Source: an uncultured Bacilli bacterium
Lineage (GTDB): Bacteria; Bacillota_I; Bacilli_A; RF39; UBA660
Direction of reading: 5' to 3'
Length of the DNA stretch: 40,915 nucleotides
Assembly (NCBI GenBank): GCA_947629365.1
Contig: CANRDM010000003.1
Coordinates: 1 to 40,915 of the forward strand
Shown one piece after another: positions 6,677 through 32,862 of this stretch; position 1 is the stretch's first letter; each line of letters begins with the position of its first letter. The position numbers and the translations under genes were made by a program. The notes beneath the pieces were generated by a model. The model was not told where the DNA came from. It saw only the letters and a list, made by a program, of their open reading frames with translations, and ran no database searches.

Positions 6677-8065
6677 TTACATCATTTTTTTTCTTCTTCT
6701 ATAATAAGAAGTATTATAACTAGCCCTCGGTATTACTCTTCTAACTGCATTTTCGATGCTATTTGCACCGGCATTAATAAAAGTATCACTTGCACTAAAT
6801 TTGTTCGGGTTACTTTTTCTTCCCATTTTTTGTCCTGCAACATACATTCTACTTCCCATTGTTGACATAAATTTTTGAATTTTATTTGGTTCTTTATTAC
6901 TTTTCGAATCAACCGTCCCCAATGTTCCCAATGCCATACCTGCTCGAGATAGGGCTCGTGATCCAATCGCTTTACCACCTTTTATAGCACCACCAGTTGC
7001 TAATAAACCACCACCTAGTGTTGCTCCGGTTGCTAATGTAGCACCAACACTTGCCATTTTTCCATATCCCATTAATGACATTAATTGTTCTCTTCCATTT
7101 GCGGCACTAACATTTGCTCCTATGAATCTATTTATTACTTGACTTCCTGTTAATATAAAGGTTGCACAGCCTAAATATAATAATGATTTAATAGTTAAAT
7201 TCATAAATGTATTTGTAAAGAAACTGGTATTATTTATTTCTTGCATAATCATTACTGTCAAATTCACTATTAAAATAATAACAACACTTTGCAATGCTAA
7301 TGACACTAATTGTTCTATTACTGCACCTCTCCTTTGTTTATTACATATACTTGTTGAAAAAACTATTGGAGAAATTGAAAATAAAAACAAGAATTCAACT
7401 TGTCTTCTACCTAACATAATTCCTGCAAAAAACAAACTATATAAGAAAAAACCTCCACTTATAATAGCCATAAACCAATTTATATCATATTTATAATCTT
7501 TTTCATCCGAAAGTATTAATCGTGATTTAGTAACATATTTTTCAATATATTTTTCTTCTTTATCAAAAGAACCATTTTGTATTAATTCTTCTATACTACT
7601 ATTCTCGTTAAATTTATCGCTATTTTTATAATTATCATTATAAGAAACATACATTTCAAGAATAGAACTACTCATTTTAGTATTAACACTATTTTTAAAT
7701 ATATTGCTTATGTAATTGGAAAGAACTATTGAAAAATTAGATACTTGAACAAACAAAAATGTCGATAACATAATTAATAAACCACATTTTATTGTTTCTA
7801 CGATAATATTTTTAAATGAATTTTCATCATCAGGATCCAACAATTTATTTATAAATTTCCAAACTATAAACAAAGCAAATAATGTTAATGATATAGCCAT
7901 TACTCCAGTATAAAAACTTTTAAATGCTTGATTACTAGATAACGAATTAATTATATCTATTATATTTAATTTTTTTATAATTTCAAACAAACCATCTATT
8001 AAGTTATAAATAAAACTTATTAAATACCACCCTAAACTTCTTAATAAATCAAATACCTTTATCAT
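6677..8065 (-). CDS. VirB6/TrbL-like polytopic membrane protein
   Basis: 462 aa, several TM helices, Gly/Ala-rich then basic C-terminus; position in T4SS operon. Confidence 0.7.
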   Translation of the reverse strand: MIKVFDLLRSLGWYLISFIYNLIDGLFEIIKKLNIIDIINSLSSNQAFKSFYTGVMAISLTLFALFIVWKFINKLLDPDDENSFKNIIVETIKCGLLIMLSTFLFVQVSNFSIVLSNYISNIFKNSVNTKMSSSILEMYVSYNDNYKNSDKFNENSSIEELIQNGSFDKEEKYIEKYVTKSRLILSDEKDYKYDINWFMAIISGGFFLYSLFFAGIMLGRRQVEFLFLFSISPIVFSTSICNKQRRGAVIEQLVSLALQSVVIILIVNLTVMIMQEINNTSFFTNTFMNLTIKSLLYLGCATFILTGSQVINRFIGANVSAANGREQLMSLMGYGKMASVGATLATGATLGGGLLATGGAIKGGKAIGSRALSRAGMALGTLGTVDSKSNKEPNKIQKFMSTMGSRMYVAGQKMGRKSNPNKFSASDTFINAGANSIENAVRRVIPRASYNTSYYRRRKKMM

Positions 8066-10434: not shown

Positions 10435-11073
10435 TTAATAATTTTCTTTTTCTATCAAAGTTGCTATATAAACAACTTGCATATTATTTTTAATGCAAGT
10501 AATAAGTGTTATATCCGATGTAGAGTTATTTTTTATAAAAGCCTTTCCTGTTTTTTCTATTTCATATCTATCCGATACTTCATATATATATTTAATACCT
10601 TTATAATAAAAATAAACTTCATCACTAATTTTTAATTTCTTTAAATTATTAAAAAAAGCAACTCGACTATTACCAGAATGAGATGCTAGTATTATATGAC
10701 TATTAGTTTGCTCATCTGGTAAAGTCGTTTCTTTTAAAAAATATATATTCTTATTTACATTATTTTTTGAACTATTTTTATCGTATAGTCCCCTTTTTAA
10801 ATTAATTTTTGGAATTTCTAAAATAGCAATATAATCTAATGAATCATCTTGAATATCAGTTTCTTGTTTCTCTTCTTCAATAGGAGGTTCTTCATTTACT
10901 TCAATTTCAAAAAAATTATCTACTTTTTCATTTTCAATTTTTTCTTGATTTTTATTATTTAGATAATCGTATATTATTATTGATGTTCCCCCAATAATTA
11001 GAAAAGTACCAATTACTACAAACAATGTATATATTTTATTTTTTATAGATTTTTCTTTTTTTAATAATGCCAT
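10435..11073 (-). CDS. Class B/D-like sortase
   Basis: N-terminal TM; catalytic ASHSG and LITC motifs; adjacent to LPXTG-like adhesin. Confidence 0.85.
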   Translation of the reverse strand: MALLKKEKSIKNKIYTLFVVIGTFLIIGGTSIIIYDYLNNKNQEKIENEKVDNFFEIEVNEEPPIEEEKQETDIQDDSLDYIAILEIPKINLKRGLYDKNSSKNNVNKNIYFLKETTLPDEQTNSHIILASHSGNSRVAFFNNLKKLKISDEVYFYYKGIKYIYEVSDRYEIEKTGKAFIKNNSTSDITLITCIKNNMQVVYIATLIEKENY

Positions 11074-14000
11074 AACTAATCATTCCAATTCCTATAATTA
11101 TTAAAGAAAACATTACTAATGTTTGATAATCATTTTTAAAAGTATCCGGTACTATGATTTCTTGTAATTCATTAATTAATTGATTTTCGATGATTTCGCC
11201 ATCATTTTTTACTTCAAATTCAACCTTATCTTCTGATAATATATAATTATCAAGAGTAGCAATCTCTTTAAAATAATAATGACCATATTCTAGTTCTACT
11301 TCAATTAATCCGTTTTCATCAGTTACATAAGTATTAATTAGTTCATCATTCATATTGTATAGACCTATTGTAACACCCGCCAATGGTTTATTATTTTCAT
11401 CCACTTTCAAAAATTTAATAATAGATTTAATTTTTCTATTTGTCATAGTTGCTTTAACTATTTCGCCATCATTTTTAATCTCAAAATACATTTTTTCTTC
11501 ATTTAACACATAACCTTCAGGTGCCTCTTTTTCAAGAATATAATATTTGCCATACTTTAATTCAGGAATAACTATTTTACCAAATTCATCAGTTAGTCCA
11601 CTAAATATTAATTCATCAGTTTCCCAATTGTATATTTCAATTAAAGTATTTGGTAATGGTTCACTAGTTGATAAATCTTCCTTACTAAATTCTAATGTTC
11701 CAGTAATTAATTTATTTGTCATAGTTGCTTTTACTATCTCGCCATCGTTTTTAATCTCAAAATACATTTTTTCTTCATTTAACACATAACCTTCAGGTGC
11801 CTCTTTTTCAAGAATATAATATTTGCCATATCTTATTTCAGGAATAGTGATTTTACCAAATTCATCAGTTAGTCCACTAAATATTAATTCATCAGTTTTC
11901 TCATTGTATATTTCAATTAAAGTATTTGGTAACGGTTCGCTAGTTGATAAATCTTCCTTACTAAATTCTAGCGTTCCAGTAATTGGTTTATCTTTCATAG
12001 TTGCTTTTACAACTTCGCCGTTTTCTTTAATTTCAAAATATATTTTTTCTGTATTTAGTACATAGCCCTCAGGTGCATTTTCTTCCAAAATATAATATTT
12101 GCCAACTGGTAAATCTTTAATTACAATTTTTCCGTTTTTATCAGTAACACCTGTAAAAATTAATTCATCATTAATTGTATAAATCTTAATAGTTGTATCC
12201 GGTAATGGTTCACTAGTTGATAAGTCAGTTTTTGTGAACTCTAATGTACCTTTCTTTAAATAATTTTTAAAGTTAAATTCAACACTTACAACTGGTGTAT
12301 ATTGATCTTTATATTTTAATTCAAAATAATGAATTTCTTTATCGATTACATATTTATCAGGTGCTGATACTTCAACTAAATAATATTTGCCTAAATATAA
12401 GTTGCTAATTTTTAATTTACCATTTTTCGTTATATATGTATTAATATAGCTATCTTTTGAATACATTAATTTACCATCACCACTATAAATATCTTCATTA
12501 GCGTATAACTTATAGGCAACATTATCTAAAGGCACTTCTTCATATTCAAACTTACCATCTTTGATATTGAATACTTCTCCTTTTTTACTTAAATTAACTT
12601 CTCCTCTTACTGGAGTATTTTCAAACATTAACTCAATAATAGTGCCTAAACTATCATCTACATAAACATTATTTGATTCTTTACTTATCGTAAATTTTAA
12701 AGGTGTATTATTCCACAAATAGCCATTCATATATGTATCAACTTCTTCTAACTGATACTCGCCTCCCATAATTTCGTATGGAGTATATAAAATTCCGTTT
12801 TTATCTGTTTCAAAAACACAAATATTTTGAACTTCGGGATAGGCAACTTGTTGACAGACATATTCATCATAAATTAAGTCTTTAATTCTAAATTTAACAC
12901 CCGCCATTGGTATTACCCTTTTAGTAACGGAATCAATTTTAACAACTTTTACTCTAGCATTTAATGGTTCATTATTTACTACCCTTTCAACATCTTTATT
13001 ATTAATATTAATTTCAAAGCAAGGCGAATCATTAGTATAATCTGTACCTTTTATTTGACATACTCTATAAATTCCATAAGGTAGAGTAATATTTGCTTTA
13101 CCTAGACTATCCGTACGAATTGTTCCGGCTAATTTATTATCTCTTTTAAGATAAATATTAAACACAACATTCGGTTCAGTTTCAACAACTCCGCTTTCTC
13201 CATTTGTAGCAGTTTTAGTTAAATAAAATTTAAATTTTAAAACTTCTTCTTTAGATGTAGTTTTAATTGTTTCTTTATCGCTATGAATTGTTGCATTATA
13301 AACCTTATTATCAATTTTATAACCTTCGCTAGGTTTTAATTCTTTAATAGTATAATTTCCATAAGGTAATAATTTACTTTTGGCATAACCATCTTTATTA
13401 GTAGTTATCTCTTCAACCTTTTCACTTTTTGAATTAAAAATTCCATAAACCGCACCACTTAATTTTGCGTCGCCTTGTGGAATCGCCATATTGTTTTCCG
13501 AATCAACTTTATAAATTTCTAAATAACCTTTGATTACTTCTTCTTTAGAAGTAGTAGTTATTACTTGTTTATTAGAATTAATCTTTACTTGATATTCTTT
13601 TTTATCGAGTTTATAACCTTCACTTGGAGTTTTTTCTCTCAAAAAATACGTTCCATAAGGCAATAAATTACTCTTTGCATAACCAAATTCATTAGTTGTT
13701 AAGGTTGCCACTAATTTTTCTCTAATATCATAAATTTCATAAACTGCACCACTTAATTTTGCATTTCCTTGTGGAATTGCCTCGCCAGTTTCGGCATCTA
13801 CTTTGTTTATTTCAATATAACCCTTTATTACTTCTTCTTTAGAATTTACTGTTACTGTTCCGTGATCTTCAATAATGCTTACGGAATATTCATTTTTATC
13901 TAACAAATAGCCCTCACTAGGTTTTTCTTCTCTTACTACATAATTTCCATACGGTAATAATTCACTCCTAGCATAACCAGAACCATCAGTCACAAGTTCG

Positions 14001-15172
14001 CCAACTCTTAAATTATTGCTATCATATATTCCATAAATTGCTCCTTTTAGTTTTGCATCGCCTTGAGCGGTTGCTCTATTATTTTCGGCATCCACTTTGT
14101 AAATTTCAATATAGCCTTGTATTTTTCCATTTGTAATATTTAACGTTGCATTTGTTTTGCTCTCGTTTAGTTCAAATGAATATGTTGTTTCGCTTTTTGC
14201 GTAGCCCTCCGGAGTTGACAATTCTTTTATAGTATAATTTCCATACGCTAAATTTTCACATTTTCCATAACCATTGCTGTCGGTAGTTATAGTACAAACT
14301 TCACTATTTTCGGCATTATAAACGCCAAATTTTACTCCTGCTAACTTATTATTGTTGTCATCAGTTTTATAAATTTCAACTGAGCCGGAAATGGTATTTA
14401 CAGTTACTGATGCGTAAACTGGATCCGATGTTCCAAAATATACTTGTTTTTGACTTTTTCCATCACTAGCATAAAAAAAGATATTTTCATCATTTGTATA
14501 AGTTTTCTTTTTTAATTGTATATTCACACTACCACTTTTTGTCGGGGTAACCACTAAATCATTTCCTGATATATTTGCATTAGCACCATTGGAATTCATT
14601 ATCTCAAATTCGGATAATATATTTGAAGTATCTGTAAAAGTTACTTGACCTCCAACTAATGTATCTTTGGATGTTCCATCAAAAGATGGTACGTCATAAT
14701 GATGTTCTATTAAATTATTAATTTCGGCTCTTTCATCGGTAAAACGTAACATTTCGCCTCCGCCTTGTGCTTCAGTCCAAATCTCGTTTTGTTGACCTCC
14801 AACTTTTTCCCATATCATAAGTTGAGTTACCATTCTATATCGTAAAGATTTATGGGTTGGATAATTGTAACCATAATATGCGATTAATGAAATATCTCTT
14901 GTTAATTCATCATCATAAGGCGATTCTCCTTGAGCCATATAAGTATGATCTGTTACATCTATACCTGGTTCGACACAAAAAGTTACTTTGCCGTCTATTT
15001 CATAACTATGGAATTCCCCCGAATGTGGTCTTTGACCTCCTCCTCTTCGATAAAAATAATAATTTTCAAATGTTTCAGTTAATGTTGCTGCTTTTACATT
15101 TTGATTATTAATACAAAAAAATGACAATATCATTGCCATTGTAAATAATATAAATTTTAATTTTTGTTTCAT
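11036..15172 (-). CDS. Thioester-domain Cna-B/SpaA-repeat surface adhesin (1378 aa)
   Basis: Signal peptide; thioester pattern (VTFCVEPG ... VTQLMIWE); about 11 Cna-B/SpaA-like repeats; C-terminal VPDTF + TM + KKRKIYKK anchor. Confidence 0.88.
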   Translation of the reverse strand: MKQKLKFILFTMAMILSFFCINNQNVKAATLTETFENYYFYRRGGGQRPHSGEFHSYEIDGKVTFCVEPGIDVTDHTYMAQGESPYDDELTRDISLIAYYGYNYPTHKSLRYRMVTQLMIWEKVGGQQNEIWTEAQGGGEMLRFTDERAEINNLIEHHYDVPSFDGTSKDTLVGGQVTFTDTSNILSEFEIMNSNGANANISGNDLVVTPTKSGSVNIQLKKKTYTNDENIFFYASDGKSQKQVYFGTSDPVYASVTVNTISGSVEIYKTDDNNNKLAGVKFGVYNAENSEVCTITTDSNGYGKCENLAYGNYTIKELSTPEGYAKSETTYSFELNESKTNATLNITNGKIQGYIEIYKVDAENNRATAQGDAKLKGAIYGIYDSNNLRVGELVTDGSGYARSELLPYGNYVVREEKPSEGYLLDKNEYSVSIIEDHGTVTVNSKEEVIKGYIEINKVDAETGEAIPQGNAKLSGAVYEIYDIREKLVATLTTNEFGYAKSNLLPYGTYFLREKTPSEGYKLDKKEYQVKINSNKQVITTTSKEEVIKGYLEIYKVDSENNMAIPQGDAKLSGAVYGIFNSKSEKVEEITTNKDGYAKSKLLPYGNYTIKELKPSEGYKIDNKVYNATIHSDKETIKTTSKEEVLKFKFYLTKTATNGESGVVETEPNVVFNIYLKRDNKLAGTIRTDSLGKANITLPYGIYRVCQIKGTDYTNDSPCFEININNKDVERVVNNEPLNARVKVVKIDSVTKRVIPMAGVKFRIKDLIYDEYVCQQVAYPEVQNICVFETDKNGILYTPYEIMGGEYQLEEVDTYMNGYLWNNTPLKFTISKESNNVYVDDSLGTIIELMFENTPVRGEVNLSKKGEVFNIKDGKFEYEEVPLDNVAYKLYANEDIYSGDGKLMYSKDSYINTYITKNGKLKISNLYLGKYYLVEVSAPDKYVIDKEIHYFELKYKDQYTPVVSVEFNFKNYLKKGTLEFTKTDLSTSEPLPDTTIKIYTINDELIFTGVTDKNGKIVIKDLPVGKYYILEENAPEGYVLNTEKIYFEIKENGEVVKATMKDKPITGTLEFSKEDLSTSEPLPNTLIEIYNEKTDELIFSGLTDEFGKITIPEIRYGKYYILEKEAPEGYVLNEEKMYFEIKNDGEIVKATMTNKLITGTLEFSKEDLSTSEPLPNTLIEIYNWETDELIFSGLTDEFGKIVIPELKYGKYYILEKEAPEGYVLNEEKMYFEIKNDGEIVKATMTNRKIKSIIKFLKVDENNKPLAGVTIGLYNMNDELINTYVTDENGLIEVELEYGHYYFKEIATLDNYILSEDKVEFEVKNDGEIIENQLINELQEIIVPDTFKNDYQTLVMFSLIIIGIGMISYGIIKKRKIYKK
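11441..12268 (-). repeat. Three tandem 276-bp (92-codon) Cna-B repeat units
   Basis: tgtcatag at 11441 and 11717 and tttcatag at 11993, exactly 276 bp apart; first two units nearly identical. Confidence 0.85.
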
Positions 15173-20791: not shown

Positions 20792-20809
20792 TAGATTAGG
20801 GTGATATTA

Positions 20810-21043
20810 ATGATAACTAAAACTTTAGAAATGTTTATTTTAGAAAATTCTTTTATTATCGAAATTATTGGAATTTTATTAATTATTTTTATTTTTTTGT
20901 TATTGCTTTGGAATGAACATAACAATAATAAAAAGTTAGTAGAATTGATAAATATGTTAAATAATCAACGAAAAAGTGATAAAGACACTATTATGGAATT
21001 AGGAAAAATAATTGATGAACAAGACAAAGAATTTAATAGATGA
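20810..21043 (+). CDS. Small single-TM, coiled-coil-like protein
   Basis: ATG with SD agggtgat; TM FIIEIIGILLIIFIFLLLLW then charged helix. Confidence 0.65.
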   Translation: MITKTLEMFILENSFIIEIIGILLIIFIFLLLLWNEHNNNKKLVELINMLNNQRKSDKDTIMELGKIIDEQDKEFNR

Positions 21044-21200
21044 TATTTTTAACGAAATAAATAATTGTAATGTTACTCAAAAAAATTTAGCAAGAAAATA
21101 TAATTTGAACGAAAGGACTATTAGAAGATATTTTAAAAAGATAAAAGATAGTAATTTGATTACTTATGATCGTATTCAAAAAAAATGGATAATCAAATAA
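21015..21200 (+). CDS. Winged-HTH/DeoR-like DNA-binding protein
   Basis: NVTQKNLARKYNLNERTIRRYFKKIKDSNLITYDR; overlaps the upstream ORF by 29 bp. Confidence 0.6.
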   Translation: MNKTKNLIDDIFNEINNCNVTQKNLARKYNLNERTIRRYFKKIKDSNLITYDRIQKKWIIK

Positions 21201-21273
21201 TATAATCTTTTATTAATTTAAACTAAAATAGTAATTTAAATAGTGGTAAAATAAAGAGGTATGGTGGATAATT

Positions 21274-21675
21274 GTGATGGAAAATAATGATTACTCAAAA
21301 AATGAAAAATTCAGTTTGTTACTTACAAAAATTATGATTATATTTTTATCTATATGTATAATTATAATTATTGTTTTAACATATTTAAATGCTAAAATAA
21401 ATAATGGCACTTTAAGTATAGAAAGTATAAATAGTTTGAAAAACATATCTAATATACTAGGCATCATAATATTAAGTATTGCAATTATTAACGTATTTTT
21501 ATTATTTATAATTATGTTTTTAAACCCCGATGATTCTGATTATAATAAATATAAAGATTATGTGTTTGTATCAAAAAAAGATATAAAAGAATTTAGAAAC
21601 GAACATATTAGAAGAGAAAGAAATTTAAAAAAAGATATTCGGAATTTAAAAAAAATAATTAAAAATAAGAAATAG
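21274..21675 (+). CDS. Two-TM protein with basic C-terminal tail
   Basis: TM IMIIFLSICIIIIIVLTYL and ILGIIILSIAIINVFLLFIIMFL; charged C-terminus. Confidence 0.65.
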   Translation: MMENNDYSKNEKFSLLLTKIMIIFLSICIIIIIVLTYLNAKINNGTLSIESINSLKNISNILGIIILSIAIINVFLLFIIMFLNPDDSDYNKYKDYVFVSKKDIKEFRNEHIRRERNLKKDIRNLKKIIKNKK

Positions 21676-21709: not shown

Positions 21710-22432
21710 TTGAGAGTTGTTTCACTAAATGTAAACAGTTTGAAGTCTTGTATTGAAAAAGGACTAACAAATAATATTTTTTCTTTAAACCCTGACATTG
21801 TATGCTTTCAAGAGATTAAATGTCAAACAAATATCTTAAATATTAACAATTATTATAGTTATTGGAGTTTTTGTAACAAAAAAGGCTATTCCGGAGTTGC
21901 TATATTTACTAAAATTAAACCTCTAAAAATTATTGAGGGATTTTTAAATGATAATTTTGATGCCGAAGGAAGAATTTTATCTTTGGAATTTAAAGATTTT
22001 ATATTAATAAACGTATATGTTCCAAATTCCAAATCAAACTTGGATAGACAAAATTATAGAATGAACTGGGATGACCTTTTATATAATCATATTTCTACTT
22101 TAGAAAAATTAAAACCTTTAATTATATGTGGTGATTTTAATACTGATTTAAAAAAATTAAAAAATAACAATGAATTTATTGATAACGAATTAGATATATT
22201 TCAAAGCATTTTAACTCGTGGATATACTGATTCTTTTATTTACAAAAATGGTAATCAAAATATAGAAAAATTTTGTACTTGGTATTTAAAAAACAAAAAA
22301 GTTGGCTATCGGCTTGATTATTTTCTCATATCGAACTATTTGCGAGATAAAATAATTGAATCTACTATACTAAATAACATTAATTGTTCCGACCACTATC
22401 CTATTCTACTGGATATAGATATAAAAGGTTAA
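21710..22432 (+). CDS. ExoIII/APE-type endonuclease/exonuclease/phosphatase (EEP) nuclease
   Basis: SLNVNSLKS, VCFQEIKC, GYSGVAIFTK, NVYVPNS, ICGDFNTD, RLDYFLIS, SDHYPI. TTG start 6 nt after ggaggt. Confidence 0.9.
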   Translation: MRVVSLNVNSLKSCIEKGLTNNIFSLNPDIVCFQEIKCQTNILNINNYYSYWSFCNKKGYSGVAIFTKIKPLKIIEGFLNDNFDAEGRILSLEFKDFILINVYVPNSKSNLDRQNYRMNWDDLLYNHISTLEKLKPLIICGDFNTDLKKLKNNNEFIDNELDIFQSILTRGYTDSFIYKNGNQNIEKFCTWYLKNKKVGYRLDYFLISNYLRDKIIESTILNNINCSDHYPILLDIDIKG

Positions 22433-22434
22433 AA

Positions 22435-24480
22435 ATGAACTTTCCTGATGAGATTTTAGAAAAAATGTGGAATTCGTTTAACTGGGATAAAATCGAAAGT
22501 AATTTACTTGAAATGCAATGTCAATTAAGTAAAGCCGCTTTTAAGTATCAAAAAGATAATGTAAAAGAGTTAAGTATTAAAATAACTAATTGTTTATCTT
22601 TTAAAGCATTAGCAGTTAAAAAAGTTTCCGAAGATTTAAACTCGGCAAGTGGTATTGATAATGTTAAATGGCTAACACCGGTCGAAAAAATGAAAGCAAC
22701 ATTATCTTTAAACCCAAAAAACTATAAAGCCAAGCCATTTAAAAGATTCATTATTAAAGATTCTAAAAATGGTAAAGAAAGAAGAATAAATATTCCTACT
22801 ATTTTTGACAGGGCTATGCAAATATTATATATGTTTGCATTAGATCCAATTTCCGAGGCAACTGCTGATAGAAAATCATTTGCTTTTAGAAAAGGTAGAT
22901 CCACGTTTGATGTTCACTCACTTATTATTAATTTTTTAAATGAAAAGGACTTCCCTATGTTTGTATTAATTTGTGATGTTAAATCTTATTATGATTCAAT
23001 TTCTCACAAATGGCTTTTAAACAATATACCAATGTCAAAGCCAGTTTTAAGAGAGTTTATTGAAGCAGGTATAGTTTTTAACAATGAAGTTTTCCCTACT
23101 GATGTTGGAATATCACTCGGTTGTAATATTTCAACTATTCTTGGTAATATGACACTAGATGGACTTCAAAAGTTATTATACGATTTACAGGGAGATAAAG
23201 TTTCCGATTATTGGCAAGGATATGTAATAAGATTTGCCGACGACATTTTAGTTACTGCTAGAAGTAAAGATGATGCATTGAAATTTAAACGAGTTATTGA
23301 AGATTTTTTGAGATTAAGAGGTTTAAAATTATCGGAATCTAAAACACAAATTAAAAACGTATTTGAGGGTTTTGAATTTTTATCAAGATTTTATTTTAAA
23401 AAAGAAGATCAGGCTCATTCTATTCCATCGGAAAAATCTATAATGAAACTAGAAAATGATTTAATGGAATTAATATTAAACAATCCAAAAAGGTGGTCGC
23501 AAAAAAATCTAATTCAAACTCTAAATTCAAAACTAATCGGATGGGCAACATATCAAAAAGTGACGGAGGCAACCGATACATTTAAACACATTGATGTTGT
23601 TGTAAATGCTTTAATTTTAAGATTAATGCATCAAATGTACCCTAATAAAACAACTGCTCAATTAACTAAAAAATATTGGTTTAAAGAAAATAACAAGTTT
23701 ATTTTTTCTTTACCAACAAATAAAAGTATAAGAATTATTCAATTATCCGATATTGTATTGATTAAACCTAGTCATCTTGATACAAAACAAAATGTATATT
23801 TAGATAAAGAATACTTTGATAATAGAAATGAAATTCAAGAAATTAATAGAATAAGTGGAAAATTTAAAACTATTTGGAATAGACAAGATGGAAAATGTTA
23901 CTATTGTAATAAATCAATTAAGCCAGATCAACCCAAAAAAATTGTAATTAAAAACCCTTGTATTAAAGACACAACCATTAAAAATATGGCTTATATTCAC
24001 TCTTATTGTGCTTACGATGAACTTGTATTTATTAACTCTAATTTAGATAAAAATTCAAAAATCAATGTTGAAGAAATATTAAAAGAAATTAATGACCCAA
24101 CATTATCAAATTTTTTTAGAAAAGAAAATAAATATTCAAAACTTTATGACTACTTTACTAATTGTAATAAATATTCTTTTCAATTAAAGTTTAGCGAGAT
24201 TGAAAAAATTATTGATAATAAATTATGCAATTCCCTTTATAAATATGATAGTTATTGGCGACAATCAAAAAATGGTTCGATTGCTAGTAGTTGGCTAAAA
24301 AATGGATATAGAATTAAAAAATTATATTTGAAAGAAAAGAAAGTAACATTTATAAGAACCAAAAAAGCCACTTCAAAACTAGAAATACCGGAACAGCTAC
24401 AATCTTCTAATTTACCTAAATCTGCTAAAGCCGAATTAGAACAATTTTTCTATTATATTATAGATAAATACGGACTATAA
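22435..24480 (+). CDS. Group II intron-type reverse transcriptase/maturase with degenerate HNH and C-terminal extension
   Basis: RVT_N; RT motifs RRINIPTIFDRAMQ, SFAFRKGRSTFD, CDVKSYYDSI, RFADDILVTA; domain X LIGWATYQKVTEATDTFKHID...YPNKTTAQLTKKYW; zinc finger CYYC...HSYC. ATG 2 nt after EEP stop. Confidence 0.92.
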   Translation: MNFPDEILEKMWNSFNWDKIESNLLEMQCQLSKAAFKYQKDNVKELSIKITNCLSFKALAVKKVSEDLNSASGIDNVKWLTPVEKMKATLSLNPKNYKAKPFKRFIIKDSKNGKERRINIPTIFDRAMQILYMFALDPISEATADRKSFAFRKGRSTFDVHSLIINFLNEKDFPMFVLICDVKSYYDSISHKWLLNNIPMSKPVLREFIEAGIVFNNEVFPTDVGISLGCNISTILGNMTLDGLQKLLYDLQGDKVSDYWQGYVIRFADDILVTARSKDDALKFKRVIEDFLRLRGLKLSESKTQIKNVFEGFEFLSRFYFKKEDQAHSIPSEKSIMKLENDLMELILNNPKRWSQKNLIQTLNSKLIGWATYQKVTEATDTFKHIDVVVNALILRLMHQMYPNKTTAQLTKKYWFKENNKFIFSLPTNKSIRIIQLSDIVLIKPSHLDTKQNVYLDKEYFDNRNEIQEINRISGKFKTIWNRQDGKCYYCNKSIKPDQPKKIVIKNPCIKDTTIKNMAYIHSYCAYDELVFINSNLDKNSKINVEEILKEINDPTLSNFFRKENKYSKLYDYFTNCNKYSFQLKFSEIEKIIDNKLCNSLYKYDSYWRQSKNGSIASSWLKNGYRIKKLYLKEKKVTFIRTKKATSKLEIPEQLQSSNLPKSAKAELEQFFYYIIDKYGL

Positions 24481-24730: not shown

Positions 24731-24979
24731 TTAATTATTGTCTTTATCAACATATAGATTAGTAATACCGCCTATCTCGATTTTTATATCATAATATTTC
24801 ATTTTTTTAATATTTGCGGGAGCATCTTCTACCATACCGTCATATTCTAATTTATCATTGATATATACTTTAATTGAAACTGTTCTTATAGAACTAATAG
24901 GCCCATATAACTTTTTAACATTTTTATTTTCTGCTTTTTTCATAAATTTCTCCTTAATATATATCATTTCTTTTTTCAT
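24731..24979 (-). CDS. Hypothetical small protein
   Basis: 82-aa ORF overlapping the methyltransferase stop by 4 bp. Confidence 0.5.
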   Translation of the reverse strand: MKKEMIYIKEKFMKKAENKNVKKLYGPISSIRTVSIKVYINDKLEYDGMVEDAPANIKKMKYYDIKIEIGGITNLYVDKDNN

Positions 24980-27900
24980 TCTGATATCTTAATTAAATAT
25001 TGTATTTCTTCATCGGTAAAATGATATTTTGCACATAAAAAGTCATCAATTTCTAATAATTCTTCTTTATATGATAAATTATTATTTAATTTATCATTAA
25101 TATTTTTTAAGTATTCTTTAAATTTTTGATATTCATCTTCTGTTATCGTTGGTAAAGGCAAATTTACTAAAAATGCTTTTTTATATCTATAACCCTTTTC
25201 ACCAAGTCCGCCTCCTGCATAAAATGATTTAAATATATTTCCTATAAGTTTTGAATTTAATGCACATATTAAATATTCTAACTTTTCGCCTGAAATAATA
25301 AACGTTGTTGCTTCAGGATAATATCCTAATTCATCATAATAAAATTGTGGTTTTTTTACTATTTCACTATACATAATTTTAGGACTAGCAAAATCCTCAA
25401 TATAAGCACAATTTCTAAGATTATAAGGTGTATCACCCTTATCATATCTTTTTTTTAATTTATCATAAAATTGATCTAAATATGATTTAATAGTTGGAAA
25501 ATCGTTTATATCAATTCTTTTTGTGTTACCATATCCATTATGAGTAACAATCATATATAAATTAGAAAAATTACATTTATATTGTTCTAAATCTCTGCCA
25601 CGAATAATTGGTTTAATAACATTTTTGTTATTTTCATCTAGATTTATTAGATAATTATAAGTATTATTATTAATTATAAATGCATCATTAAATCCAGTTA
25701 ATAATCCACGATTTATTCTAATATTCCAATTTAATAATTTTTTACCGTATTTTTCAACTTTATTCTTTATATTGCTTTCAATGTTAGTCATTAATATCCA
25801 ATTAGAATTATCAATATAGGAATTTTCAACAAAATTATTATTTAAATTATCTTCTAAATTTCCCTTATAATTATCGTGTATTTCAACAGTTTTAGTATTT
25901 CTTTTATTTTTTGAATTTTCAGTTAATAAAATATTTACATCAACTTGCGCTGATTCAAAAACTTTATTACCACAAAAATTTATTAACATTAATGGATTAT
26001 ATTTACTTAAAAAACCTCTTAATTTTTCGCCATAAGCAGCTCTTAACCATTTATTGGATGTAATAAAGCATTCTATTCCGTTCTCTTTTAATAATTCAAG
26101 TCCTTTCTCATAAAAAATACAATAAATATCCCCAGTTCTAGTGAAAGTTTTATATCCTTGACTTTCTAATTCATTCGCTAATTTACCACTATCTTTTTGA
26201 AGTTGAACATATGGTGGATTACCTATAACAATATCAAAACCATTATTATTTTTAAAAACATCAAAAAACTCTAATTTCCAAATAAACCACGATTTATTTT
26301 TCTTCTTCTCTTCATCTTTAAATTTTAATAATTTATCTGAATTATTCTTTAACGATTCTTCTATCATACCAAATTGAATCAAGTCAATTTTATTTTTTAA
26401 TTCTTTTTTCAATTTATTATCAGATGTTCTAAAATATTCTTTTTGTAAATTTAGCATTTTTTCAATATAGCTATTCAAGTTAATAGAATTTTCATCAAAC
26501 TGAAATGATTGCTGAATATGAATATCGCTTACAAAATTAATATCAGATTCTTTTCTTTTATAATTTTTAAGATTATTAGAAAGAATTTTTTCGCTGAAAA
26601 GTGGAACGCCTTCAAACGACTCAACTAGACTATTTCCTTGCATAATTTTACAATCTAAATTAGGCAATGGTCTAGGTTCCGCATCATTTGGATAATCAAC
26701 TATTAAAGACAGCCATAATCTTAATTTCGTAATGTCTATTGCACTAGATTCAATATCAACCGCATAAATGCAATTTTCAATGGTCTGTAATTTAATATCA
26801 AATAAACTTCTCTTTAATTGCTCATTATTAGTTAATTTATTAATATTTATTTCTTTTTCATCATTTTGAATCATAATGTATGTGGATAAATTATTGCGTA
26901 TTTTTGATATTTCAGTAAGCATTCCTAATGGGAACGCACCAGAACCAACTGCTGGATCTGCAATTTTAACATTTATTAGTGCATTATCAATTTTTAAAAC
27001 ATTATCATAAATACTCTTACCTATTAAATAAGAATTTGAATTTTTTGTGATATGTTGTTCCCAATCTAATTGAGTTATTAAATCACCATATTTAATAAAT
27101 TCTATTATTTCATCATAAGATATATTTACATTTTTAACTAAGTATTGTGCTAAGCATTCTTGACACATATAATATACGATTTCTCTAGGAGTATAAAATG
27201 CTCCTTTTGATTTTCTATCATTCACTTCTAGTAGGTTTTCAAATATTTTACCAAGCATTTCTGGATCAACTGCAACATCTTTTTCTAATGGTTCTTCTTC
27301 ATCAATAGTAAAGTTATAAAGATCCAAAAAATCTAAAATGCCATCTTTGGTATCATTGCTAAACATACTATTAGGAATATTAAAATAAGCACTAGACCAG
27401 CGATAATTATTTAAAGGTTCAAATAGTCCACCATTTAAAAATGGAATTTTACAATTAAATAATGGGAAAAATTGATTTTCTCTTTTTTCATTTAGTCCTC
27501 TATAAAAAAATGGTTCTAAATAATCATCAAAAAAATTTTTATGTTCTTTAATTGCTTGTTTGTATATAGAACGGATAAAATCTTTTTTTCCAGTTCCCCA
27601 ATTTTTATCATAACTTGTTCCTTTAAATAAATTAGACAAATTTATTATATCTTCTACAGAATCTGTTGCTTTTAATTCAGTTTTACTAATTACATAAAAA
27701 TTTTCCTGCTTTTCATAAAATTTATTTAAAAGATTTTGAGAAACACTATCAATATTATTATATAACTCTTTATACTCAATCAAATTTAATTCATTTGGTA
27801 CAAGTTGTACTCCAAGCCATCCTTTTTTTTGTAAAAAATACAAAAAAACTATTTGACCCATTAATTTTTTTGCAAATTCAACAGATGTAAAATCTGATTT

Positions 27901-28551
27901 TTTGGATTCAGTTAAAAAATCTTCATTTTTATCAAGGTACTCTTTAAGTTGTAAATATTTTTCTTTGTATTCTTCAAAAAATTTTTTTGTAACTTTTTCT
28001 ACATCAAATACTTGCTCAATATCTTCAAGTTTAATTTTTCTGTCATTTATTTTCAACAGTTTTAGTAAAAATTCTTGTGCTGTGTGAACTGACTCATTTT
28101 CACCTACTAAATAAGAATATCTTTTTGCAGGTGTCAGTTCAATTTTAAAACCTTTATCTGTAAAATTTACTTCTTTCTTTACAAATGATAATCTCCAATT
28201 AGTTTCAGTTTCAGAATAAAATGCTACTAAAGATGCATCTAAATCATATTTAGATAAGATAGTAGCTATAAAATTTCTTTGAGAAGTTCTTGCATTTGTT
28301 GAAGTACTATTGCTAAGTTTAACTATCAATATACCAATAGTATTTAGTCCATCATTGTATTTAGCAATATATTTATAATAATCTATATTGCCTCTATATT
28401 GATTAGGAATATCTTTTCGTTCATCAATATTATTAGATATATCAAATTGACTTAGATTTAGCAAATCTTTTACAAAGTCAATATAATTATTTTCTTCAAA
28501 TCTCTTTGTTAAAATATTTAGATATTCTTTTTCTCTTTGATCCACTTGCAT
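24976..28551 (-). CDS. Eco57I-like N6-adenine DNA methyltransferase (type IIG/DrmMI-like)
   Basis: GAFYTPREIVYYM, ADPAVGSGAFPLGML, DIVIGNPPYVQL; 1191 aa. Confidence 0.9.
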   Translation of the reverse strand: MQVDQREKEYLNILTKRFEENNYIDFVKDLLNLSQFDISNNIDERKDIPNQYRGNIDYYKYIAKYNDGLNTIGILIVKLSNSTSTNARTSQRNFIATILSKYDLDASLVAFYSETETNWRLSFVKKEVNFTDKGFKIELTPAKRYSYLVGENESVHTAQEFLLKLLKINDRKIKLEDIEQVFDVEKVTKKFFEEYKEKYLQLKEYLDKNEDFLTESKKSDFTSVEFAKKLMGQIVFLYFLQKKGWLGVQLVPNELNLIEYKELYNNIDSVSQNLLNKFYEKQENFYVISKTELKATDSVEDIINLSNLFKGTSYDKNWGTGKKDFIRSIYKQAIKEHKNFFDDYLEPFFYRGLNEKRENQFFPLFNCKIPFLNGGLFEPLNNYRWSSAYFNIPNSMFSNDTKDGILDFLDLYNFTIDEEEPLEKDVAVDPEMLGKIFENLLEVNDRKSKGAFYTPREIVYYMCQECLAQYLVKNVNISYDEIIEFIKYGDLITQLDWEQHITKNSNSYLIGKSIYDNVLKIDNALINVKIADPAVGSGAFPLGMLTEISKIRNNLSTYIMIQNDEKEININKLTNNEQLKRSLFDIKLQTIENCIYAVDIESSAIDITKLRLWLSLIVDYPNDAEPRPLPNLDCKIMQGNSLVESFEGVPLFSEKILSNNLKNYKRKESDINFVSDIHIQQSFQFDENSINLNSYIEKMLNLQKEYFRTSDNKLKKELKNKIDLIQFGMIEESLKNNSDKLLKFKDEEKKKNKSWFIWKLEFFDVFKNNNGFDIVIGNPPYVQLQKDSGKLANELESQGYKTFTRTGDIYCIFYEKGLELLKENGIECFITSNKWLRAAYGEKLRGFLSKYNPLMLINFCGNKVFESAQVDVNILLTENSKNKRNTKTVEIHDNYKGNLEDNLNNNFVENSYIDNSNWILMTNIESNIKNKVEKYGKKLLNWNIRINRGLLTGFNDAFIINNNTYNYLINLDENNKNVIKPIIRGRDLEQYKCNFSNLYMIVTHNGYGNTKRIDINDFPTIKSYLDQFYDKLKKRYDKGDTPYNLRNCAYIEDFASPKIMYSEIVKKPQFYYDELGYYPEATTFIISGEKLEYLICALNSKLIGNIFKSFYAGGGLGEKGYRYKKAFLVNLPLPTITEDEYQKFKEYLKNINDKLNNNLSYKEELLEIDDFLCAKYHFTDEEIQYLIKISE

Positions 28552-28559
28552 TCACTTCC

Positions 28560-31500
28560 TTACTTAACAAACAATTCAGATAATATGATTTCTCTTGTTA
28601 TTATATTTTCTTCTTCGTTCTTTTTTTCTTCTAAATCAAAATATGTAGATGGAATTGATGCATAAAAGTCTTTATAAAATTTTATCAAATCACTTTTTGA
28701 TTTTACATTTATTTGAATCATTTTATTGGCATTTTTTAACATTTTTGTAGGCAATTCACCATTTTGCAACAATTTTATTAGTTTATTTCCTTTATCAATT
28801 TCTTCATCCGTTAAAATATCTGTTGACTTTAATGCTTCTTTTAAAATATAAATAATATTTTTAGCATTGCTTGTTCCTTTTCTTTTTTCAGTTTTAGTAA
28901 ATTCCTCTTGATTTTCTTCTAATTCAAAATTATCAAAAGAATTTTTATTTTTATTCAATAGTATATAATATTTTGAATTAATAGTTTCTGCTGTTTCTTC
29001 TGGAGTAGTTTTAATCATTTCAATTGCATTATCAAAAGTTATTTCATCGGTATTACTTTGATTAGATAAATAAAACTTTTTAACATATCCCTTTCTAAAA
29101 AAAGTTAATAATTCTTCATCTTGACCTTTTCTAGCAATTTTAATTTTTTTAGGCATTTGTTGAATTTTACTAAATAATTCTGGTTTTTTATCTCTAATTT
29201 CTCTTATTAATTTTAAATATTTCAATTCAGTATTTAAACCTGTTTCATCTTCATCATTTATAGTAGTCATTTTTTTAAACAATTCGTGCGTAGATACATT
29301 TTCTTCATCCGTTAAGAATTTAGAGTCTTCACCTAATATATTATGAAACATTTGAATTTTGCTAATAATGTTTTCATTTTGATGAATCAAATCATTTGAA
29401 TTAGAAGTCGGGAAAAAATTATATACAAATAATTCTTTATATCTTGTTCCAACTCGATTGATACGACCCACTCTTTGCATTATTTTAGTAGGATTCCAAG
29501 GTAAATCGTAATTTATTATTACATTACTTCTATGTAAATTCATTCCTTCTGCTAATACATCAGTGGTAACTAAAACATCATATTCATCTTTCGCAAGTTC
29601 CGAATCAACATTCGGATCAAAATTGTTCCTAATTTCATTTTTTATGTTATCACTCATAGATCCAGAAAATAATATAACCATTCTATTCAATTTTTTTTGA
29701 ATATTTTGTGATAAATATTCTGCTGTTTCTTTTGATTCAGTAAATATAATAATTTTATTTTTTAAATTTTTATCGGTTCTTAATAAGTCTAAAAAATATT
29801 CTAATTTACAATCACTATTCAATTCTTCCCATTTTTCTTTTAAACAAGTTAAAATATTTAAATCTTTTATTAAGTCTTCTATAAAATTATCTTTAAATTC
29901 ATTAGATTTAAAAGAAAATGCATTTCCTTTTTCTTTGCCTTCAATAAGAACTTCAAAATCTTCACGATCTAATAAATCATCAACATTTAATTTTCTACTA
30001 ATCCATACTTCGCCATTATTATACATTTTAATAAATCTTTCGTGAGATTCAATAAATCTAGTTAATGTTTTTGTAAAAGCATATTTACTACTTTCTAATC
30101 TTTTTATTAAAGTTCCTTTCATAAAAGCACCCATATTTCTTTGCCCCGTCAATAAGGTATTCATTTCACTAGTCAAAAATTTATCTTTAACATAAGTTAA
30201 GGGTTTATAACGAGAATAAGTTAACTCTTTTATTAAATTTATAGTTTCCTCAAATATTTTTTCAGTTTGCTCATCAAATTCGTAAGTTTCCTTAATTGGA
30301 TTGTTTAGTTTAGGAAAAGTTAATCCTTGCTTTTCTAAATCTTCTTTATAATTATTTTGTATTTCTGTTCTTGTTCTTCTTATCATTACTTCTCTTAAAA
30401 CTCTATCTCTAATTTTACAAGAAGCTGTTTCAAGGGCATTAAAATAATCATCTGTACCTTTCTTATGTTTATTAACTTCAGATTTCAGATTTAAAAAGAA
30501 TTGTTCTAATTTTCTAACACCTGGAATAGTAGAGTTAGTTTTTGATTCAAATAAATACATTTGATTAGCAATATCAGTAACATAATTATTTTGTGGGGTT
30601 GCAGTAATTAAAATAATTTTTTTATTAGCACATATTTCGGATAAATAGGTATAATTATCTGTATTATCATTTCTAAATTTATGAGCTTCATCAACAAAAA
30701 TATATGAAAAAGTTCTATATAATTTTTCTTCACTAATTTTTCTTAAATTACCACTAGAATAAACCTCAAAATTTCTTACTCCAAATGATCTTAAAACTTT
30801 TCTCCAGTAATCAACTAATACAGGGGGAACTAAAAATAATTTACCTCCAGATAGTTCATTTCCTAATAACGCACACATATACGTTTTTCCTAGGCCAACT
30901 ACATCTGATATAAATACCCCATTATGTTTTTCCAACATTTTTTTTGCCTGTATAACTGCATCCATTTGATATTGAAGTGGTCTAAATCCTTCTATCAAAT
31001 ATTCATTTGTTTTAAATTTAAATGATTGATCATCATTAATTTCTTCTTTAAAATATTCATATAAAAATTTTAAATACATTTCATAAGGAGTAATATCATT
31101 CTTTATCCAAGTATCTTTTTCAATAGTATCAATACATTCTTGACTTATATCAATAGAATCTTTCCACAATTCTTCAAATTTAGTGTATGCAAATTCCACA
31201 TCTCCACGATTCTTTAACTCAACATTAAATTCAAGGTTATTTAATAATCCGTTATATGAAAAATTACTAGAACCTGTTATAACTTTTCCATAATCTGCAC
31301 AATCATTATAATTTCTCATAACATAAACTTTGGCGTGAATAGGTTGCTTTGAATATACTCGAATCTCTAATTTTCCATTTCTGATAAATTCAATAAATTT
31401 ACGAACTCCAATTTCTACACATTCAGAATCATCAGAATTTTCAAATTCTTGTTTCAATTTATTTTTATAAAATAACTTACTTTCATAAGTATTTAAATTT

Positions 31501-31754
31501 ATTTCATCAATAGACATTTGACTTTCTTTATATAATTTTAATACCTGTTCATCCGTATTTATTCCAATTAAAATTCTTGTTTTTTCAACATTATCTAGTG
31601 AATCCTGTAGTAAATAAAATCCACTAGCTCTAAAATATCCAACCAACACATCAAAGAATTGTGTATCTCTTTTCAAAATTTTGTTAAATCTTTCATTTAA
31701 ATTTCTTTCTGGTTCATTAGTAAAAAAAGTTAAATCATTATTCATATTTATCAC
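28560..31754 (-). CDS. PLD-nuclease/SNF2-type helicase fusion
   Basis: N-terminal PLD motif HAKVYVMRN...KVITGSSNFSYNGL; VGLGKTY, DEAHKFRN, TATPQNN, VGRINRVG. Confidence 0.9.
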   Translation of the reverse strand: MINMNNDLTFFTNEPERNLNERFNKILKRDTQFFDVLVGYFRASGFYLLQDSLDNVEKTRILIGINTDEQVLKLYKESQMSIDEINLNTYESKLFYKNKLKQEFENSDDSECVEIGVRKFIEFIRNGKLEIRVYSKQPIHAKVYVMRNYNDCADYGKVITGSSNFSYNGLLNNLEFNVELKNRGDVEFAYTKFEELWKDSIDISQECIDTIEKDTWIKNDITPYEMYLKFLYEYFKEEINDDQSFKFKTNEYLIEGFRPLQYQMDAVIQAKKMLEKHNGVFISDVVGLGKTYMCALLGNELSGGKLFLVPPVLVDYWRKVLRSFGVRNFEVYSSGNLRKISEEKLYRTFSYIFVDEAHKFRNDNTDNYTYLSEICANKKIILITATPQNNYVTDIANQMYLFESKTNSTIPGVRKLEQFFLNLKSEVNKHKKGTDDYFNALETASCKIRDRVLREVMIRRTRTEIQNNYKEDLEKQGLTFPKLNNPIKETYEFDEQTEKIFEETINLIKELTYSRYKPLTYVKDKFLTSEMNTLLTGQRNMGAFMKGTLIKRLESSKYAFTKTLTRFIESHERFIKMYNNGEVWISRKLNVDDLLDREDFEVLIEGKEKGNAFSFKSNEFKDNFIEDLIKDLNILTCLKEKWEELNSDCKLEYFLDLLRTDKNLKNKIIIFTESKETAEYLSQNIQKKLNRMVILFSGSMSDNIKNEIRNNFDPNVDSELAKDEYDVLVTTDVLAEGMNLHRSNVIINYDLPWNPTKIMQRVGRINRVGTRYKELFVYNFFPTSNSNDLIHQNENIISKIQMFHNILGEDSKFLTDEENVSTHELFKKMTTINDEDETGLNTELKYLKLIREIRDKKPELFSKIQQMPKKIKIARKGQDEELLTFFRKGYVKKFYLSNQSNTDEITFDNAIEMIKTTPEETAETINSKYYILLNKNKNSFDNFELEENQEEFTKTEKRKGTSNAKNIIYILKEALKSTDILTDEEIDKGNKLIKLLQNGELPTKMLKNANKMIQINVKSKSDLIKFYKDFYASIPSTYFDLEEKKNEEENIITREIILSELFVK

Positions 31755-31836
31755 CTATTGTCTCTACTATATCTTTTAATTATATTATAACATTATATAA
31801 CAATATTTTTAATATTTATCTCATATTTTTTAATAA

Positions 31837-32862
31837 TTAATCCTGTGCCCACTCATCTTCGCCATCATAATCATAATAATTACATAAACTTATTTCTTGC
31901 ATTAATTCATAGGTAATTGGAAAAACATATTTTTCTTGAAATTCTATCTTATAATCTTCTTCTGTTTCGCTTACAATAATTGAAAATTCATAATCACTAA
32001 TTAAAAGTCTATTTAATACAAAAAAATCTATATCATCCATTGAACTATAAGATTTAGTATAGTCTTCACAAATAAATTCACCATCTAATATTAAAAAATC
32101 ACATTTACAATTCACAAAAAATTGTTTATCTTTATGACTTATTATATCAATATCTGTAATTTTTTGAATAACTAAATTATCTAATTGTAAATTTTCATAA
32201 TTTAAGTCTATACTCTTTAATTCAATTTTATTTAATAATTCTTCTTGAATATCTTTTAATTTATTATTTATGCAGTCTTTTATTTTATTGATTACATCTG
32301 GTGATGCATTATTTATTTTAGCTAAAAACTCGTTTAAATCATCAAATACTTCAATTTCTTCCTTTAAAGCATTTTTTATGCCTTTATCATTCGTAACAAA
32401 ATATATTTCTTCATTATTACTAATTTCTATACTATTAACATAGCTTACTATAAAAGCATCTGGAAACTCTTTTCGCTTTTCTTTTCTATTTTCAAAAGGA
32501 TATTCAACTTTAAAATATTTTTTAAAAATTTCTTCTGAATTAACACTAGAAATATCACATTTTTTTGCCGAAATATTTATCTTAAAATTGTTATAATCAA
32601 CTAGATCTTTATAACAATGTTCCCTTATCTTTTCATCTGAAATATATTTTTTAATCCATTTTCTATTAGATATTAATTTATATTCTTGATCTCCTCTTTG
32701 ATTTAAATGCGAACTAATTTCGCCATCAATGACACTTAAACTATAATATTCATATTTTTTATCTCTAACATTTTGTATCAACGTTTTAATTATTAAATTT
32801 TTTTCAGAAAAATTATATCCTATTTTTTCAAAAGCATTTGTATCTACAAACAATTTATTCAT
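31837..32862 (-). CDS. PIN-domain-like protein
   Basis: N-terminal LFVDTNAFEKI; EFPDAFIVSYVNS; IYFVTNDKGIKNAL fit the acidic PIN motif spacing. Confidence 0.6.
   Translation of the reverse strand: MNKLFVDTNAFEKIGYNFSEKNLIIKTLIQNVRDKKYEYYSLSVIDGEISSHLNQRGDQEYKLISNRKWIKKYISDEKIREHCYKDLVDYNNFKINISAKKCDISSVNSEEIFKKYFKVEYPFENRKEKRKEFPDAFIVSYVNSIEISNNEEIYFVTNDKGIKNALKEEIEVFDDLNEFLAKINNASPDVINKIKDCINNKLKDIQEELLNKIELKSIDLNYENLQLDNLVIQKITDIDIISHKDKQFFVNCKCDFLILDGEFICEDYTKSYSSMDDIDFFVLNRLLISDYEFSIIVSETEEDYKIEFQEKYVFPITYELMQEISLCNYYDYDGEDEWAQD

Follow-up and report, generated by a model that had tools for sequence, protein, structure and literature searches.

Roles in DNA repair and in the acquisition of CRISPR spacers are known for domesticated group II reverse transcriptases (RTs), and roles in defence for other RTs of prokaryotes. 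The APE-type LINEs combine an APE-type nuclease with a group II-related RT. G2L4, a domesticated RT of microhomology end joining, has YIDD at its active site (PMC4244168, PMC12337344), is devoid of the D and En domains and keeps the XQG motif as AQG (PMC12337344). Here we describe a locus in which an ExoIII/APE-family nuclease (EEP) lies directly upstream of a group II-type RT. This is the kind of enzyme pairing used by LINEs, found here in bacteria and possibly in archaea without signs of self-mobility, and a system of just two genes is therefore available for the study of how a nuclease is replaced and a primer supplied.

Architecture of the locus

The window, i.e. the whole stretch of 40,915 nucleotides analyzed, encodes the EEP at 21710..22432 (+), a protein of 240 amino acids with all catalytic residues present, whose TTG start at 21710 is preceded by GGGAGG. 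The RT (22435..24480, +; 681 amino acids) starts with an ATG 2 nt past the EEP stop, the junction being TTAA-AA-ATG. These coordinates and the EEP motifs N, E, Y, GDFN, RLDYF and SDHxP were given in the original prediction and all of them hold; the coupling of the two genes that it proposed agrees with the 2-nt gap in the window and with the immediate upstream position of the EEP in all the RT loci described below. The EEP matches Pfam Exo_endo_phos (1.4e-19) and the NCBIfam xth family TIGR00633 (4.7e-56), scoring 190 bits against the latter where the family cut-off is 99 bits.

Four Pfam domains were found in the RT, the first three of them in the order typical of group II proteins, namely RVT_N (22468..22710, +; residues 12-92), the polymerase domain RVT_1 (22765..23379, +; residues 111-315), the maturase/thumb domain GIIM (23446..23679, +; residues 338-415) and DUF7662 (24133..24351, +; residues 567-639), which lies within a C-terminal extension. 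RT motif 4 (23107..23124, +) reads GISLGC as against GTPQGG in group II RTs, and the catalytic motif (23233..23244, +) is FADD where the group II references have YADD. An En remnant (23896..24009, +; residues 488-525) keeps its CxxC and HxxC zinc ligands and has lost the catalytic histidine. Both this degenerate zinc/HNH domain and the C-terminal DUF7662 had been overlooked in the original prediction.

Distribution and sequence conservation

The RT was sought in 120 genomes of relatives, 246 of the family, 397 of the class and 348 of the phylum, and further in 38 genomes of the genus, in GTDB contigs and in viral contigs. Six more loci with the RT were found in these database scans, with RTs 39-60% identical to that of the window. 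L035 occurs in a genome of the same genus as the window (G022) and L034 in one of the same family (G224), L069 comes from roe deer rumen, L071 from a ‘Lapin’ Bacilli assembly and L091 from an IMG/VR viral contig, while L073 is a 2.6-kb contig of 54% G+C from goat cecum that is binned as Methanocorpusculum and could be mis-binned. The hosts of the pair are Bacilli of the gut, this one gut Methanocorpusculum assembly and the one viral contig. The viral contigs gave no match when the window RT or the first three-sequence alignment was the query; L091 was recovered using the L073 protein and a C-terminal alignment. A wider alignment also found L094-L097; the three that were tested, L094, L096 and L097, show group II intron RNA, and they served as controls.

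The EEP lies directly upstream of the RT in all seven loci, with junctions ranging from -8 to +2 nt. The L073 contig holds only the C-terminal part of the EEP, and its RT start was read as a GTG at 329-331 that overlaps the EEP stop. The RT is rare across the genomes searched and very patchy within the genus and the family, and the DNA homology between loci comprises the two genes and little else. For L034 and L071, the locus pair close enough to be measured well, dN/dS is 0.14 for the EEP and 0.14 for the RT, and both genes are under purifying selection. Homologous RTs that normally stand without an EEP neighbour had been named beforehand as the finding that would count against the pair, and the opposite was observed in 7/7 RT loci. 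Because every RT locus found has an EEP directly upstream, the pair is evidently a conserved module and not a chance pairing.

Origin of the reverse transcriptase

In maximum-likelihood trees the EEP-paired RTs form one clade (support 100/100) with a long stem (0.96) inside the group II intron RTs, and this clade groups with the RT of an Aneurinibacillus intron and with that of the viral locus L094 (support 100/98). Among PDB sequences the RT matches the group II maturase 6me0 best (5e-117), and Foldseek with the structure model of the RT, a weak one (pLDDT 64, pTM 0.44), also places group II RTs first. Group II intron RNA (D1D4-7 and domain V in Rfam) was found in the flanks of all eight nearest intron RTs tested, versus none of the seven EEP-RT loci in the same Rfam search; a hidden intron around the RT was rejected on this account. 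Since the clade nests in the group II RTs, the best PDB match of the RT is a maturase and intron RNA is present at 8/8 controls and 0/7 pairs, the RT comes from a group II intron and no longer has the intron around it. The original prediction had likewise taken it for a group II-type RT without an intron, and had named a functional intron around the RT as the second finding that would count against it.

The EEP-paired RTs differ from their relatives at several sites. The XQG glutamine is lost in all seven (PQG being replaced by SLG or SEG) and kept in 16 of the 17 reference RTs, and the seven read FADD where 16/17 references read YADD; in each count the remaining reference failed to match the search pattern. 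As the glutamine is part of the dNTP-binding element, its uniform loss predicts an unusual polymerase. The En-domain histidine is absent in 7/7 and present in most intron references, while the CxxC and HxxC zinc ligands are kept. This histidine is also missing in the functional-looking intron references L075 and L078, so that En decay alone is not unique to the EEP-paired RTs; the reference L074 is degenerate.

The C-terminal extension with DUF7662 occurs in the EEP-paired RTs and not in the intron references aligned. DUF7662-like sequence was also observed at L100 (Halomicrobium) and L101 (Caballeronia), where it is part of genes for GIY-YIG and HNH nucleases or adjoins them, and the domain may be a nuclease-associated DNA-binding module. 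A gene divergent from the EEP in L069 (6494-7099, -) encodes a protein that matches, at 56% identity, the C-terminal region of another (L068:1498-2376, +) which carries DUF7662 at its N-terminus, and therefore a DUF7662 fusion partner adjoins a DUF7662-bearing RT; Pfam, NCBIfam and PDB gave no name for this partner.

Features of the nuclease

The catalytic residues of the EEP (N, E, Y, DxN, D and DH) are kept in all full-length members, the L073 sequence being a C-terminal fragment. Its nearest PDB matches are ExoA/APE1 enzymes (8igi, 5cfe and APE1) at 1e-85 to 1e-65, against 1e-15 for the LINE-1 endonuclease, which does not support the original description of the pair as LINE-like in so far as kinship was meant. 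The loops at residues 145-161 and 195-207 have low model confidence, and it is in these two that the EEP departs furthest from housekeeping ExoA.

In APE1 the tryptophan of the GWR motif lines the AP-site pocket. The five Bacilli EEPs have Y, S or C at this position, which is W in 30/30 housekeeping ExoA sequences, and given the place of the residue in APE1 a substrate shift is possible for them. Loss of the tryptophan was dropped as a trait of the whole EEP family as the L073 and L091 EEPs keep it. The EEPs of the five Bacilli loci group together as a clade (support 100/99) on a long branch. A single acquisition of the EEP by the RT was also considered and set aside, the support for the L091 EEP joining the Bacilli EEPs being just 65/10.

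No other ExoIII-family gene above the cut-off was found in the six cellular host genomes, and among 37 congeners the cut-off was exceeded only in G022, itself a carrier of the pair; this absence is soft because most host and congener genomes are draft assemblies. We also rejected the EEP as the housekeeping gene of its host, as housekeeping ExoA sequences fall outside the cassette clade and the congeners without the RT have no such gene above the cut-off.

Neighbouring genes and flanking sequences

The pair in the window is convergent with a type IIG restriction enzyme-methyltransferase (24976..28551, -) and a PLD-helicase related to DISARM DrmD and to phospholipase D anti-phage proteins (28560..31754, -), both of which are taken as context outside the module. 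These two genes and one for a PIN-domain protein stand in a row at 24976-32862 (-), likely a separate defence cluster facing the pair. The window region also encodes a TraG-like ATPase and an M23 peptidase, which are consistent with the label of ICE given to it earlier. Three small genes, two with membrane-like stretches and one with an HTH, lie upstream of the EEP on the same strand (20801-21675, +); none of the other pairs was seen to have them. Elsewhere in the window (11036-15172, -) a surface protein of 1378 amino acids combines a thioester domain with some ten SpaA prealbumin-like repeats.

Restriction-modification genes were observed near three of the seven loci (the window pair, L069 and L091) and were absent from the stretch read at the remaining four, of which L071 and L073 are short contigs. 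The L091 pair has XRE, WYL and SLOG-like genes around it and is followed by the type I methyltransferase HsdM. In L069 an EcoRI-type methylase is encoded at a distance of about 5 kb to one side of the pair, and XRE and integrase genes to the other. The pair in L034 comes after the genes of a small membrane protein and an M23 peptidase, which are perhaps for the lysis functions of a phage. In L035 it is preceded by a resolvase, and a DUF5655 protein (6966-7784, + in G022) is encoded upstream of this resolvase-like gene and the EEP. L071 has a transposase downstream of the pair. Each cellular genome contains one copy of EEP-RT.

The 400-nt flanks of six loci were no more alike than shuffled controls, except upstream of L034 and L071. 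A conserved template RNA adjoining the genes was rejected, as these two alone of the six share upstream sequence; a template RNA from elsewhere in the genome, or from within the two genes, would be compatible with this result. Their shared stretch (L034:6427-6600 and L071:171-344; 174 nt, 92% identical) has a promoter-like TTGAAA-17-TATAAT site and then, ahead of the EEP promoter, a strong hairpin resembling a terminator. This unit was seen at no other pair and could possibly be a short RNA or an attenuator.

Proposed role of the pair

We tentatively interpret EEP-RT as a two-gene nuclease-polymerase module that is carried as cargo by mobile elements, was domesticated and is most likely anti-phage, and assign to this reading a probability of about 0.42; the architecture follows from the sequences, and the mechanism and role are proposed. 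In this module the target-cutting activity of the RT itself would be gone and the separate ExoIII/APE-type EEP would take it over, nicking or trimming DNA to expose a 3'-OH. The zinc and DUF7662 domains would hold the RT on the DNA, and the occurrence of DUF7662 with GIY-YIG and HNH nucleases is counted in favour of the module. The EEP-made 3' end would then be handed over as a primer and extended by the RT without a dedicated template RNA. An anti-phage effect could arise if incoming DNA is tailed, mis-filled or otherwise damaged, or if an immune DNA product is made. Such a division of labour, in which the RT lost both its RNA and the nuclease for its target and a separate nuclease that makes 3'-OH ends stepped in, is the simplest reading of the joint changes. 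The fuller proposal of a prokaryotic immune system, where the EEP replaces the lost En domain in making the 3' end for the RT and the two proteins form a counterpart of the LINE enzymes that serves defence and not transposition, is a doubtful one. Nick-coupled DNA synthesis, if true, would be of interest to genome engineers.

The rarity, the mobility and the neighbours of the pair speak for defence; the types of enzyme involved and the case of G2L4 speak for repair. The original prediction had offered an antiphage or repair RT next to the LINE-like reading, and the former is the better of the two. As an accessory repair system parallel to G2L4, the EEP would clean AP sites or blocked 3' ends and the RT would fill gaps or join microhomologies in hosts without a housekeeping ExoIII. 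The ExoA/APE1-like EEP with its intact catalytic residues would suit this role, as would the lack of another ExoIII-family gene in the six cellular hosts and in the congeners (1/37 above the cut-off, itself a carrier), and in G2L4 there is already a group II-like RT with a role in end joining (PMC12337344). However, the pair is very rare and patchy within the genus and the family, unlike a repair gene, and is carried by mobile elements; the five Bacilli EEPs have another residue in place of the tryptophan found in 30/30 housekeeping ExoA, the XQG motif that G2L4 keeps is lost from the EEP-paired RT, and the missing ExoIII is a soft observation in draft genomes. We consider repair rather unlikely.

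A role of the EEP as a brake is more unlikely still. Here the RT product would be a toxic or immune DNA that the EEP degrades as a 3'-5' exonuclease until phage infection blocks it. There is a precedent in DRT9, whose product is degraded by the host ExoI and for whose tolerance sbcB is needed (PMC12483538). The tight coupling with the nuclease gene placed first would also suit an antidote. ExoIII-family exonucleases, however, act mainly on duplex DNA, and a single-stranded product would therefore be a poor substrate for the EEP.

An autonomous retrotransposon, whose RNA would be copied by the RT into a target site nicked by the EEP, is very improbable. A nuclease and an RT do make up the LINE enzyme pair and the surroundings differ among the loci, but the pair is single copy in each genome and lies inside larger mobile elements, homology between loci does not reach beyond the two genes, neither a 3' RNA nor element ends being shared, and the EEP does not resemble the LINE endonuclease. 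A self-mobile retroelement was rejected on the single copy and the lack of shared ends. With one copy in each genome, and with neither flanking RNA nor element ends in common, the term LINE-like is not supported in the sense of mobility either.

That the genes adjoin by chance, or that a group II intron has decayed next to the gene of a housekeeping nuclease, is barely credible and effectively refuted by the conserved pairing: relatives do contain group II-type RTs and the host is without another ExoIII, but the pairing holds in 7/7 loci amid unrelated flanks, both genes are under purifying selection, Rfam finds no intron remnant at the pairs and congeners without the RT are also without ExoIII.

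Relation to described systems

The mobile group II intron RTs (the closest being WP_272444045 of an Aneurinibacillus plasmid and the viral L094, with 6me0 as a solved relative) share the RVT_N, RVT_1, GIIM and zinc/En layout with the EEP-paired RT, whereas the latter has no intron RNA, no XQG glutamine and no En histidine, reads FADD for YADD, and has gained DUF7662 and an obligate EEP neighbour. Housekeeping ExoA/APE1 enzymes have the fold and all the catalytic residues in common with the EEP, which differs in a shortened NVAHQEIDLKNPK loop, an altered GWR-side loop, the loss of the GWR tryptophan in the five Bacilli members and its long branch. The APE-type LINEs likewise join an APE-superfamily nuclease to a group II-related RT, but in one gene as against two; the nuclease here is of the ExoA type and not a LINE endonuclease, and the pair is single copy without element ends.

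With the DRT, UG and Abi systems and the retrons the pair shares mobility, rarity and a defence-like neighbourhood. The best class-level PADLOC match of the RT is UG17 (80 bits, to the RT domain only), and the tree held no curated UG sequences. In contrast to these systems, the EEP-paired RT nests in the group II introns and keeps RVT_N and GIIM, and the pair is without a shared ncRNA adjoining its genes and without a known DRT effector. PADLOC has no entry for the EEP, and its RT models match the RT as a generic relative only. The pair as such has no entry in PADLOC, NCBIfam or PHROGs and no description was found in the open-access full-text literature, in agreement with the earlier view that it is not among the known RT systems.

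G2L4 is likewise a group II-type RT without an intron (PMC12337344), and the parts of the G2L4 text that were searched make no mention of an EEP partner. The EEP-paired RT differs from it in reading FADD in 7/7 members, in keeping the D/En region and in having lost the XQG glutamine. On these comparisons EEP-RT belongs with the domesticated group II-like RTs in a broad sense, being neither G2L4 nor an intron, and there is a real chance that it is a new system.
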